Position numbers and translations under genes: made by a program. Below the pieces are notes generated by a model. The model did no database searches. It was not told where the DNA came from and worked only from the letters and a program-made list of their open reading frames with translations. A DNA stretch of 64,000 nucleotides, taken from contig CALVAR010000005.1 of the NCBI GenBank assembly GCA_944325575.1, positions 1 to 64,000 on the forward strand, given 5' to 3'. Positions 830-59,155 of the stretch are shown here, piece by piece (the stretch's first letter is position 1; the number at the start of each line of letters is the position of its first letter). The DNA is from Candidatus Gastranaerophilales bacterium. GTDB taxonomy: Bacteria; Cyanobacteriota; Vampirovibrionia; Gastranaerophilales; Gastranaerophilaceae.

Positions 830-910
830 TGCCGATGAAGGGACTCGAACCCCCATGAGTTTCCTCGCACGCACCTGAAGCGTGTGCGTCTACCATTTCG
901 CCACATCGGC
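830..910 (-). tRNA. tRNA-Leu(CAG)
   Basis: An 81-nt tRNA. Acceptor strands GCCGATG (from 910) and CATCGGC pair, with discriminator A at 830. The D-arm contains GGTAGAC. The anticodon stem CACGC/GCGTG encloses TTCAGGT, giving anticodon CAG. A long variable arm (GAG-GAAA-CTC) and T-loop TTCGAGT follow. CCA is not encoded. Both ends of the gene are duplicated in flanking sequence (687-708 and 1024-1074). Confidence 0.93.
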
Positions 911-19971: not shown

Positions 19972-20073
19972 ATATAGTCCTCATTTTCTGATGTTTAAAA
20001 TCTTAACACAAAATATAACATATGAAAAACCCTAATACTGTTTTTGGTAACAATTTATAAGGATAAAATTTTG

Positions 20074-20230
20074 AGTGTCATTTGAAAAGGTGAGCAGGTG
20101 CCGGCTGCGATCAGCGGAATCAGACTGGCACGCCGTGTGAGGTAACACCGAACCCAGTGCCACTACGAAGGAAAACGTTGAGTTTTCCGAAGTGTCTGAT
20201 TACAAGACAGCCGGCGGCAACTGCGACACT
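20074..20230 (+). repeat. Structured intergenic element C (covarying module)
   Basis: A 157-bp element between efp and folK that folds along its full length. AGTGTC (20074-20079) pairs with GACACT (20225-20230), GCAG (20094-) with CTGC (20221-), and GCCGGCTG (20100-20107) with CAGCCGGC (20208-20215). AATCAGAC (20118-20125) pairs with GTCTGATT (20194-20201). Inside are hairpins TGGCAC/GTGCCA (20126/20157) and GGAAAAC/GTTTTCC (20170/20182). The inner module recurs at 58904-58985 with compensatory changes. It could be a non-autonomous mobile element or an RNA leader of folK. No known riboswitch matches. Confidence 0.7.
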
Positions 20231-20272
20231 AGATTAGTTGTAAAAGACGCTGAAAAATTATAAAATTTAAAT

Positions 20273-20773
20273 ATGGCAATAGCATATTTATGTTTGGGTA
20301 CAAATATCGAAGACAGGAAGAAATTTATCGAGCAGGCGGTAAGTTTTCTTGATATGTCTGAAAATATAAAAATCATAAGGACCTCTGCTCTTTATGAAAC
20401 AGAGCCGTGGGGGGTTAAAAACCAAAACTGGTTTTTAAATCTTGCGGTTGAAATAAAAACATCTTTAAGCCCTCAGGACTTGCTTATAAAATGTCTTAAT
20501 ATAGAAAAAACGCTTGGCAGAGACAGAAATCAAGAATCCCGCTGGGGCGAGCGGCCTATTGATATAGATATAATATTTTATGATAATGCGATTATACAGT
20601 CAGAGATTTTGACTGTACCGCATGAAAGAATGCACCTTAGGGCATTTGTGCTTGTGCCTTTGCTTGAACTTATACCGGATTTTAGACATCCTGTTTTAAA
20701 AAAGACGGTATCAGAACTGTATGACAGTCTTGAAGATGTGGAAGATATCTTTTTATACGGAACAAAATTATGA
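20273..20773 (+). CDS. folK: HPPK: hydroxymethyldihydropterin pyrophosphokinase
   Basis: A 166-residue folate-pathway kinase transferring pyrophosphate from ATP to 6-hydroxymethyl-7,8-dihydropterin. Signatures are Y-L-C-L-G-T-N-I at 5-12, A-L-Y-E-T-E-P-W-G and the P-I-D-I-D-I-I-F-Y motif carrying the two Mg-binding aspartates, then P-H-E-R-M-H-L-R-A-F. Length is normal. It overlaps the next gene by the ATGA quadruplet, so the pair is translationally coupled. Element C lies just upstream. Confidence 0.96.
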   Translation: MAIAYLCLGTNIEDRKKFIEQAVSFLDMSENIKIIRTSALYETEPWGVKNQNWFLNLAVEIKTSLSPQDLLIKCLNIEKTLGRDRNQESRWGERPIDIDIIFYDNAIIQSEILTVPHERMHLRAFVLVPLLELIPDFRHPVLKKTVSELYDSLEDVEDIFLYGTKL

Positions 20774-42168: not shown

Positions 42169-42771
42169 ATGAAATTATTAAACAAAAAAGCATATACTCT
42201 TGCAGAAACGCTTTTGACTCTGGCTATTATCGGTGTTATTGCTGCAATGACGATTCCCACATTAAAAAACGACGCGGAAGAACGAAAATTTGTATCTTTA
42301 ACCCAAAAAGCATTTAATACGATTTCCGATGCTACTGCAAGGCTGGAAACAAAACATGGTAATTCGGAATTTTGGTCTGCATCAAAATATACTGAATATT
42401 ATAAGGAAGTAATAAATTTTGATACAGGTATATCTGTTAATACGGAATTAAAAAGTTCAGATTTTTCAGGTACGGAATACTCTCTTTGGAATAGTGAAAA
42501 TGTATTTGTTGGCACTGACGGCATGTATTGGAAAATAGATACAAAAGCAAATAATCCGAATTTTGTAGTCGATATTAACGGCCCTCAGCTTCCTAATGTT
42601 ATTGGTATAGATGTTCATGCATTTTATTTGACAGATGACGGAGTCGTTCCGCAGGGGGTATCCGGCACTTCAAATAAAAATCCTTGGTCGGCATGCTGTA
42701 CTGCTTATGTTATTAAATATGGGAAAATGCCTTGGTTAAAAAATCCTATAGCGAAATGTCCGTCTATTTAA
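42169..42771 (+). CDS. Prepilin-like protein 1
   Basis: A 200-residue type IV pilin/type II secretion pseudopilin-like protein. The processing site is K-K-A-Y-T-L-A-E, with Ala rather than the usual Gly at -1 and Glu at +5. A 20-residue hydrophobic helix ending I-P-T-L-K follows. The C-terminal domain has V-D-I-N-G-P-Q-L-P-N-V-I-G-I-D and ends with paired cysteines and K-M-P-W-L-K. First of four tandem paralogs; secretion/assembly genes are not in the window. Confidence 0.88.
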   Translation: MKLLNKKAYTLAETLLTLAIIGVIAAMTIPTLKNDAEERKFVSLTQKAFNTISDATARLETKHGNSEFWSASKYTEYYKEVINFDTGISVNTELKSSDFSGTEYSLWNSENVFVGTDGMYWKIDTKANNPNFVVDINGPQLPNVIGIDVHAFYLTDDGVVPQGVSGTSNKNPWSACCTAYVIKYGKMPWLKNPIAKCPSI

Positions 42772-42774
42772 TTC

Positions 42775-42804
42775 TTGACTAAAATTTATTAGTACCGCTA
42801 AAAT
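42775..42804 (+). promoter_or_regulatory. Promoter upstream of prepilin 2
   Basis: TTGACT (42775-42780) and TAAAAT (42799-42804) are 18 bp apart, just after the stop of prepilin 1, so later prepilins may be transcribed separately. Confidence 0.65.
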
Positions 42805-42823
42805 AACAAAAAGGATGGATATT

Positions 42824-43471
42824 ATGAAAAAGTTTGGTAGAATAAAAGCGTTTACTCTGGCGGAAGTATTGCTTACACTTGTTGTTGTGGGTGTTATTTC
42901 CGTGTTGACAGTTCCCACGTTAAAAAATCATGCGGATGAAGCCAAATATGTTGCTGCAACACAAAAGGCAATGTCAGAAATAGCTGCTGCAACAAGTAAT
43001 GCAGAGCTTGCATACGGTGAAGCATCCAACTGGAATTTTAAAAGTTCTACTGTAAAAGAATATTACAGAAAAGCTATGAACACAGTGCCTTTTCCAAAGG
43101 GCAGCAAAACATCTTGGCCGCGGTTAGGACTTGACGGAGCAAATGCAACATTTAGACCCGCATTTATGACTGCAGACGGTATGGCCTGGGAAGTTCATGA
43201 CGGCGGATACGGCTGCGGCGGAGGTTGTGCTCTTGTTGATATAAACGGATCTGAGCCGCCAAATACAGTTGGCATTGATATTCATGGTTTTAGAATCGGT
43301 TCATTATGCGATGGCAGCAATAAATCCGGTGATTTTGGCGTATATGCAATGGGTGATGGCAAGAATGATAAAAATTCGGAATGGGCGTGTACAGCTTATA
43401 TTATAAGAAATAAAAAGATGCCCTGGTTGTATACATCCACGGATAGTTGTAAATCATATCAAGGCAAATAG
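42824..43471 (+). CDS. Prepilin-like protein 2
   Basis: 215 residues from the ATG at 42824, chosen because AAGGA lies 9 nt upstream (an in-frame ATG at 42815 overlaps the ribosome-binding site). The leader ends R-I-K-A, followed by F-T-L-A-E and a hydrophobic helix to V-P-T-L-K. The globular part shows G-G-Y-G-C-G-G-G-C, a Gly/Cys loop unique to this paralog, then V-D-I-N-G-S-E-P-P-N-T-V-G-I-D and W-A-C-T-A-Y with K-M-P-W-L-Y. Confidence 0.88.
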   Translation: MKKFGRIKAFTLAEVLLTLVVVGVISVLTVPTLKNHADEAKYVAATQKAMSEIAAATSNAELAYGEASNWNFKSSTVKEYYRKAMNTVPFPKGSKTSWPRLGLDGANATFRPAFMTADGMAWEVHDGGYGCGGGCALVDINGSEPPNTVGIDIHGFRIGSLCDGSNKSGDFGVYAMGDGKNDKNSEWACTAYIIRNKKMPWLYTSTDSCKSYQGK

Positions 43472-43502
43472 AATATATAAATAAAAAAATAAGGGGTTAA
43501 AC

Positions 43503-44378
43503 ATGATTAAACAAAAAACAAAAGCATTTACACTTGCAGAAGTACTTGTCACACTTATGATTATAGGTGTTATTTCTGCATTAACTATTCCGACATTAAA
43601 AGAAACAGCGGACAGGAGTGCAAACCTTGCTGCATTGCAAAAAGCTTATTCTACAGCAACAAATGCCTTTGCTACATTAAAGGCTGAGTATGGAGCGCCT
43701 ATTTATTGGATGGTTCCGTCTGATGCACAGAATGCCCCCTCTGCTATTAAAGGTCAAAGAGTATTTAAAGATGGTACTGACCAAGGATTTTCATGGATGT
43801 TAAAACAAAAAATATCTGTAGGTCAGCAAAGTGGTATTCCTCCTGCTGGATATAAAATAAAAAAATTATCCGGAGCTGAAATGTCAACTGCAAAAATTGG
43901 GCAGACAGAAATTAACTTATCTGATTCATCGGGGAATGTATCTTTTCAGAGTGCAGACAATATGTACTGGTTCCCGTCAAAAACATACAGCGGTTGCAAG
44001 TATACAATAGATCTTAAAGCTCAGTATGCCGGTTCAGCTAATAAGAATAATTCGGCAGTACAATACAGAGGGACTAAGAGCCATCTTGATATATTCGGTG
44101 CTCCTGCATATGCTCTACCTATTTCATCATCTGCATCATCTAATTTGCATAAATTTAATAACGTTGTTCATATATGCGGACATATTATTGTTGATACCAA
44201 TGGTGCAAAAGCTCCGAATCGTATGGGTATTGATGTATTTGTTTTTGATGTTAGTTCAGATGGTGTTATTCCTCATACAGGAAATGATGATTGTAAAGAT
44301 ATGACAGGTGACGGATATACTTGTTCTTCTAAGCTGATTAACGGCGATGAGCATGCACTTGACTTTATTTATGAATAA
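43503..44378 (+). CDS. Prepilin-like protein 3
   Basis: The longest paralog, 291 residues. The site is K-T-K-A-F-T-L-A-E, then a hydrophobic helix ending I-P-T-L-K. An enlarged middle domain, rich in Ser, Gln and Ala, precedes V-D-T-N-G-A-K-A-P-N-R-M-G-I-D and a C-terminal Cys pair (D-D-C-K and Y-T-C-S). It lacks the W-x-C / M-P-W-L ending of paralogs 1 and 2. AAGGGG lies upstream of the start. It may be a tip or minor pilin, by its size. Confidence 0.88.
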   Translation: MIKQKTKAFTLAEVLVTLMIIGVISALTIPTLKETADRSANLAALQKAYSTATNAFATLKAEYGAPIYWMVPSDAQNAPSAIKGQRVFKDGTDQGFSWMLKQKISVGQQSGIPPAGYKIKKLSGAEMSTAKIGQTEINLSDSSGNVSFQSADNMYWFPSKTYSGCKYTIDLKAQYAGSANKNNSAVQYRGTKSHLDIFGAPAYALPISSSASSNLHKFNNVVHICGHIIVDTNGAKAPNRMGIDVFVFDVSSDGVIPHTGNDDCKDMTGDGYTCSSKLINGDEHALDFIYE

Positions 44379-44408
44379 TATCTCTATAACAATAGGAGAA
44401 AAAATCTT

Positions 44409-45098
44409 ATGAAAAAAGCATTTACTCTTGCGGAAGTTTTAATGACGCTGGTAATTATAGGTGTTATTGCTTCGATGACTATACCTACATTGAAAAAAAC
44501 TTCCGATGAAAAGGCTTATGTTGCAGGAGCTTTAAAAGCATATTCTGAATTATCTTCTGCTACAAAATCAATAAAAAGAACTGAAGGGCCTATCTCAATG
44601 TGGGCCAGTTATTCTTCAGCAAATGCGGCGGCAGATATTATTAGTAAATATAAGACAATAATGCCATCAGTTGGTGTTCCCTCAAATTCATATAAGATAC
44701 AAACTCTAAATAATGAAGACAGCAGTCTGGGCGAAGGGACATTTTCAAATTCTGATACAACAATCACTGCTGCTGACGGAGCTATTTATAATCTGGCTTT
44801 TGTTAATGATTGCACCGCAGCAAATGCAGCCTCAAAGGCTTGTTTTAGGTTTGTAGTTGATGTAAACGGAACAAAAGATCCTAATATGATAGGTGTTGAT
44901 GTTTTTGCTTTTGATGTAATGAAAAACGGAGATGTAAATCCCGCAGAAGGCAAATGTCCGCCTGATTCTTCGCAAAATAGCGATAGCGGAAATAATAAAG
45001 GTGATGAGGATAAAAATGATTCCTCACAGAATAATCAGGATTCAGACGGATGGGGCTGTACTGCCAGACTTATTAAAGAAAAAGACATAAGCTGGTAA
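44409..45098 (+). CDS. Prepilin-like protein 4
   Basis: 229 residues with the shortest leader (M-K-K-A before F-T-L-A-E). The hydrophobic helix ends I-P-T-L-K, as in its neighbours. V-D-V-N-G-T-K-D-P-N-M-I-G-V-D is followed by an Asp/Asn/Ser-rich low-complexity stretch (~190-215) absent from the others, then W-G-C-T-A-R-L-I-K. AGGAG precedes the start. A strong terminator at 45124 closes the array. Confidence 0.88.
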   Translation: MKKAFTLAEVLMTLVIIGVIASMTIPTLKKTSDEKAYVAGALKAYSELSSATKSIKRTEGPISMWASYSSANAAADIISKYKTIMPSVGVPSNSYKIQTLNNEDSSLGEGTFSNSDTTITAADGAIYNLAFVNDCTAANAASKACFRFVVDVNGTKDPNMIGVDVFAFDVMKNGDVNPAEGKCPPDSSQNSDSGNNKGDEDKNDSSQNNQDSDGWGCTARLIKEKDISW

Positions 45099-52117: not shown

Positions 52118-52291
52118 TTGTCTGAGGCGGCCTCGCTTGTAGAAGTGGTACACGGAGGGCGAGTGACGCCAAGTCTAGCATTTTGCGGAAGTGACCCCAT
52201 GCACTTGTTGGCTGTGCCGGACTTGTTGGCAAAAATGTACTTGTTTATAGCACAGGTTCATTAAGTAGTCGGAGTCAGTTGACAACATGAA
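52118..52291 (-). repeat. Structured MITE-like element B
   Basis: A ~170-bp element filling the gap between the phosphoesterase and purB. Read on the minus strand, the first 86 bases match element A (58818-58903) at about 74 positions by eye. This includes the end TTGTCAACTGACTCCGACTA, the stem CTGTGC/GCACAG (52212-52217/52250-52255) and loop motif caacaagtc. A second matched block has GGGGTCACTT and GCAAAAT. The ~80-nt covarying module present in A is missing here. The ends carry short inverted repeats TTGTC/GACAA. No ORF. Confidence 0.75.
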
Positions 52292-58817: not shown

Positions 58818-59155
58818 TTCATATTGTCAACTGACTCCGACTACATCTTGAACCTGTGCAATAAATAAGTCCGTTTTTATCAACAAGTCGGGCACAGGCA
58901 ACAGCGAAATCTGACGGGGCTGACTGAAAGGAACGCCCCTTGTGAGGGAAAACCACGCTTTTCCCGAACGTCTGATTTCAAGACAGTGCAAGGGGTCACT
59001 TTAGCAAAATTCATGCTTATGCGGCTTCGTTACTTCTTAAATATGACACCGGTAATTTAAGAGGCAGAGTGTGCACCACTACTGGCTTGAGATGTAGGCG
59101 AGTTGCAGTATATGTCATGATACTCTTGATTACAAACGAAGCCGTTTTAGACAAT
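58818..59155 (+). repeat. Structured MITE-like element A, largest copy
   Basis: A ~335-bp element between the amidase fusion and lipA with no ORF. The left end is ttcatattgtcaac; inverted ends are ATATTGTC/GACAATAT. Structure: CCTGTGC/GCACAGG (58853/58892), then the module AATCTGAC (58908)/GTCTGATT (58970) with hairpins GGGGC/GCCCC (58916/58935) and GGGAAAA/TTTTCCC (58946/58959). GTCT/AGAC (58970/58981) is an alternative hairpin. The right part has aggcagagtg and ggcttgagatgtaggcga, matching the tRNA-Leu-adjacent inserts. Its end overlaps lipA. Confidence 0.75.

Follow-up and report, generated by a model that had tools for sequence, protein, structure and literature searches.

The folded sequence located 5' of folK represents a single copy of a non-coding repeat of about 96 nt, here called the module, which occupies positions 20114-20209 (plus strand) of the window, i.e. 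the 64,000-nt stretch of Candidatus Gastranaerophilales DNA analysed in this study. Its length of 96 nt (GCGGAATCAGAC...GTCTGATTACAAGACA) equals the difference between filled and empty sites exactly, and the covariance model matches it with 108.7 bits. The module forms a three-way junction on the plus strand that, according to the covariation alignments, consists of i) the closing stem P1 (20116-20125 with 20194-20203, with 20117/20202 mismatched in the folK copy), ii) the stem P2 (TGGCAC, 20126-20131, with GTGCCA, 20157-20162) and iii) the P3 arm (20165-20193), whose letters vary with compensatory changes and here read GGAAAAC/GTTTTCC (20170-20176 / 20182-20188). P2 encloses an asymmetric internal loop (20132-20156) made of GCCGTGTGAG, a small covarying hairpin (20141-20143 / 20147-20149) and GAACCCA, as defined by pattern search. 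The module starts with GCG and ends, by end parsing, with the tail CAAGACA (20203-20209); column conservation marks both loop and tail as near-fixed across copies.

This unit is inserted inside another palindromic repeat, outer repeat C, whose left part (20065-20113) lacks the first ~35 nt (TGTCCGAG...) known from other copies and whose right part (GCCGGCGGCAACTGCGACACTAGATTAG) spans 20210-20237, both on the plus strand and delimited by blast and by the comparison of empty and filled copies. Between the element and the neighbouring gene folK (20273-20773, plus strand), an open reading frame outside the element that owes its name to the initial annotation, lies a promoter-like block TTGTAA-17-TAAAAT (20238-20266, plus strand). 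This block is conserved in relatives without the module, many of which have TTGTAA...TATAAT at the corresponding place in front of the ATG at 20273. A second module in the window (58904-58985, plus strand; element A, the folK element being C) belongs to a subtype with a short P2 arm, sits in a different outer repeat and was recognised by its helices GGGGC/GCCCC and GGGAAAA/TTTTCCC together with a model match. By sequence comparison, the left part of an A-type outer repeat without a module (empty site CAACAAGTGCATGGGG) is found at 52206-52291 on the minus strand.

All helices that the initial annotation had named in A and C are present, including AATCAGAC/GTCTGATT (20118-20125 / 20194-20201) in C, and both elements have a common compensated fold far above chance. 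In the larger alignment (97 model matches, 76 of them distinct), 26 of the 28 base pairs show two-sided changes, with 309 such cells against 79 in shuffles, which bears out the proposed compensatory change between the helices. True partners pair at 95%, and partners slid by 1-3 columns at 22-50%. As this alignment was fitted to the model it leans towards structure, but a hand-made alignment of 14 copies agrees (97.7% paired cells; 11 pairs with two-sided change versus 3.8 in shuffles), so that the covariation test suggested at the outset was strongly positive with both. Fold energy z-scores range from -2.9 to -3.7. The hairpin within the P2 arm takes forms such as GGTAACACC, GCGAAAGC, TGCATGGCA and GTGCGTAGCAC, in every case flanked by GCCGTGTGAG and GAACCCAG, although these flanks are fixed by the search pattern itself. 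Near-pairs comprise 72 G-T and 20 A-C cells, counted over related copies and hence not independent, a bias that points to conservation of the fold on the plus-sense strand of the module.

The second of the two mutually exclusive folds postulated in the initial annotation finds no such backing. The sequence GTCT..AGAC (20194-20208) exists in C, but this pairing occurs in 73.3% of cells compared to 72.9% in shuffles and has no excess of compensatory change, as AAGA stays fixed while its partner changes. The helix GCCGGCTG/CAGCCGGC, described as closing the module in C, is present as well; however, it lies outside the module and is part of the outer repeat, which is also found without a module.

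The host genome harbours about 40 copies (41 model matches). A blast search with 20060-20245 returned 31 matches in this genome: three near-complete composites, many matches to the inner part only and several outer repeats that lack this part. The covariance model matches 31 of 59 genomes, including all 23 of the genus (the window's own counted), with up to 46 copies per genome, and the module also occurs in scattered Gastranaerophilales genomes beyond the genus. Its carriers are gut bacteria related to the cyanobacteria but non-photosynthetic. At the level of the order, the exact loop pattern is found in 56 of 286 genomes, while reversed-pattern controls gave zero. Among the matches listed for the core pattern in the GTDB collection, those with the pairing arms and the CAAGA end come from Gastranaerophilales/Melainabacteria-type or unnamed bacterial records, and most of the named genomes that contain true members are Candidatus Gastranaerophilales/Melainabacteria; matches listed from Streptomyces, Nitrospinota and similar lack the pairing arms. 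For the 12-mer of the 3' end (AATAATCCAAGA), enrichment was seen in several of the family's genera, and levels in other Cyanobacteriota were close to the control. Separately, two IMG/VR contigs (L201, L205) carry the module, which raises the possibility that phages or prophages of these bacteria spread it.

The boundaries of the module are best seen in outer repeat C, which is found with 0, 1, 2 or 3 modules inside. Without a module its core measures 18 nt (GTTGA|GCCGGC or GGTCA|GCCGGC), with one module 114 nt, which is exactly 96 nt more, and with three units, in a single case, 328 nt. Accordingly, the comparison of empty with filled outer repeats revealed no target duplication. Immediately 5' of the module, 94 of 125 copies have an A; after the CAAGA end, the next bases are C and A, each in 78 of 117 cases. 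The usual insertion point lies between A and G. Among versions with parsed lengths of 58-150 nt, none was seen to carry a gene; four further spans are longer (265-361 nt). Head-to-tail arrays show an exact period, as in three copies at G020:C18:44473-44760, and one array (L042), for which misassembly is possible, combines an A-type left flank with a C-type right one, the outcome expected from recombination between modules. Several copies lie at contig ends, so the module may explain assembly breaks. In its own right, outer repeat C is a palindromic element with multiple copies (TGTCCGAGAAAATTTTGC...GACACTAGATTAG; window 20065-20237 and L009, L010, L023, L025-L028, L030), and some of its copies hold a further insert of ~53-57 nt (TTCACTGTACGTGAAGACATTTTGCACTGAATC...GAAGTC) after GTCATTTG.

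With respect to genomic context, the first base of some copies doubles as the final base of a stop codon (rpmJ, rpsM and atpE; TA|GCGG). In the genomes of the genus, what occupies the rpmJ-rpsM and rpsM-rpsK gaps varies: these are GCGGATT...CCAAGA modules in changing combinations or an unrelated folded sequence at the same place. Looking at these ribosomal-protein gaps (rpmJ-rpsM-rpsK, L240-L260) species by species, almost every species of the genus has a different structured module there, often starting from the last base of the stop codon. The flanks could be read for 87 copies: 58 have the upstream gene in the same direction and 29 in the opposite one, and this becomes near even after setting aside the stop-codon copies. 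Further copies follow a T tract (6 of 58 independent sites), and many reside in hairpins of other repeats. Targeting of hairpin loops was considered as a rule and rejected, since at least 5 bridging pairs around the site were found at 72% of sites and at 63% of random sites, only weakly above the control.

Several explanations can be weighed against these data. A cis-acting leader RNA of folK that switches between two alternative folds in a riboswitch-like manner, along the lines of the structured regulatory RNA suggested by the initial annotation, is highly improbable: although the module lies 5' of folK and GTCT has two possible partners in this copy, the alternative hairpin does not covary and about 40 copies are located at other genes. 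In addition, of the genus genomes in which the region upstream of folK could be read, the window's genome alone has the module there, and since the promoter-like block sits between the module and the folK ATG, the module is not expected in the folK transcript. In the closest relative (G014, L218), a different insertion occupies the same folK promoter position and ends with TTTTTCTCGGACA, the reverse complement of the outer-repeat start. An origin from IS200/IS605-type elements, moved as single-stranded DNA by resident Y1 enzymes, has little probability too. The window's genome encodes three Y1 loci, and scarless insertion and folded ends resemble the behaviour of this family. However, the two Y1 genes with clear flanking palindromes are bordered by repeats of other sequence (e.g. 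GTAGGTTGGGCATACTTGCCCAAC); these GTAG palindromes were examined as candidates and represent a repeat different from the module. Moreover, a Y1 match was obtained for 18 of 59 genomes but for none of six copy-rich ones (G002, G006, G010, G014, G018, G021). Beside one Y1 transposase gene with its own GTAG-type palindromes, a tandem array (GGAACCCCGTTTGGGTTCGAATCAATAAAGTAGTGGGTG...) of yet another repeat lies just 3' of the gene (L038 1600-2654, at the end of G000:C7).

A structured RNA that acts in the transcript, for instance as an intercistronic mRNA stabiliser or insulator in operons such as rpmJ-rpsM-rpsK, with its spread being secondary, is unlikely but deserves more weight than the two preceding explanations. 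It would account for the strong strand-specific covariation, the near-fixed internal loop and the sense copies directly 3' of ribosomal-protein stop codons in many species. Against it stand the occurrence in both directions near genes once the stop-codon copies are set aside, the copies that follow T tracts or lie in the loops of other repeats, the lack of conserved gene contexts and the folK copy, which is 5' of the promoter and unique to the window's genome. We consider it probable that the feature in front of folK is a copy of a structured mobile module, BOX-like, non-autonomous and gene-less, which is specific to this lineage, spreads at the DNA level and multiplies in arrays by recombination. 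Structured mobile DNA was the other option offered by the initial annotation, and it is this one that gained ground from the number of matches within one genome (31 by blast, 41 with the model), exact empty sites, tandem arrays and differing modules at one site across related species. Sequence comparison firmly establishes that the module has clean ends, has been mobile over evolutionary time, forms arrays, keeps its fold by compensatory change and resides at stop codons as well as in several unrelated host repeats. On the other hand, the difference between empty and filled outer repeats may stem from loss of the module as well as from its gain, the strong covariation could reflect an RNA function, and a new insertion between strains of one species was not observed. 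A broader version, in which lineage-wide gene-less mobile modules, recognised by their fold and not by their end sequence, insert scarlessly at A|G via an undescribed trans-acting enzyme and repeatedly settle right after stop codons in essential operons, is more tentative and rather doubtful as a whole.

In organisation, with no claim to a sequence relation, the family is reminiscent of the streptococcal BOX elements (boxA-boxB(n)-boxC), in which the inner module occurs 0 to n times between outer modules and each folds on itself (PMC3049150). In both cases outer modules flank a variable number of inner ones in interspersed, intergenic, gene-less repeats, and repeats are nested in one another. 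In contrast to BOX, the module shows no target duplication, has a GC content of 51% versus 36% for the genome, has covarying ends, belongs to another lineage and also lives alone and in unrelated outer repeats. REP/REPIN sequences with their RAYT (TnpA-REP) are likewise small, palindromic, multicopy and extragenic and fold as single strands (PMC3116915, PMC3733652), but the module has three arms instead of a simple hairpin, ends in GCG...CAAGACA without a GTAG/CGTC tag and is not linked to the presence of RAYT (Y1), as copy-rich genomes lack Y1. With MITEs it shares being non-autonomous, short, folded and multicopy; unlike them, the module is not AT-rich, makes no target duplication and has a terminal inverted repeat, P1, whose letters vary in a paired way, and no partner transposase was found among the resident families searched (Y1, RVT_1, IS110). 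Group IIC introns are another group whose insertions, located behind terminators and in hairpins, leave no target duplication. The module is likewise found after T tracts and in hairpins without target duplication, but it is far too short, matches neither domain V nor any Rfam family, and its genome lacks a reverse transcriptase (RVT_1).

The search for a mobilising enzyme found none among the Y1, RVT_1 and IS110 families, and none of them follows copy number: RVT_1 has no match in the window's genome (G000), and IS110 is nearly absent. The 4227 models of Rfam 15 gave no match at the gathering score nor at E up to 10, and, with regard to integron attC arrays, no attC-type GTTRRRY box was visible by eye at the module ends. 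Among openly licensed papers we found no published description of this module family; an earlier description is possible.

For the mobile module, we propose that it moves as DNA via a trans-acting enzyme that recognises the folded single strand. The cue of this enzyme would be the closing stem, the fixed loop and the CAAGACA tail rather than a fixed terminal-repeat sequence, and such fold recognition would explain why stem letters drift in pairs with loop and tail fixed. Since the module's own junction ACA|GCG resembles the target A|G, it can adjoin itself, and homologous recombination between modules may then lengthen, shorten and mix the arrays. Stop-codon copies presumably persist because the first G of the module rebuilds TAG. 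At folK, the module would be a passenger in an older outer repeat upstream of the promoter. Gastranaerophilales are a lineage with almost no genetic tools, and structured intergenic sequence in them is not by itself evidence for a riboswitch. The rich covariation, exact boundaries and natural empty sites mean that the enzyme and the insertion rule can be sought directly.

Apart from the module, two further observations were made in the window. A perfect 51-nt direct repeat with 124-nt spacing (900-1074) overlaps with the beginning of a tRNA gene (830-910, minus strand) and is possibly the mark of an integrated element. At 42184-44497, four consecutive genes start with a similar stretch (AAAGCATTTACTCTTGCGGAAGT...) that has the appearance of a type IV pilin-like N-terminal signal.
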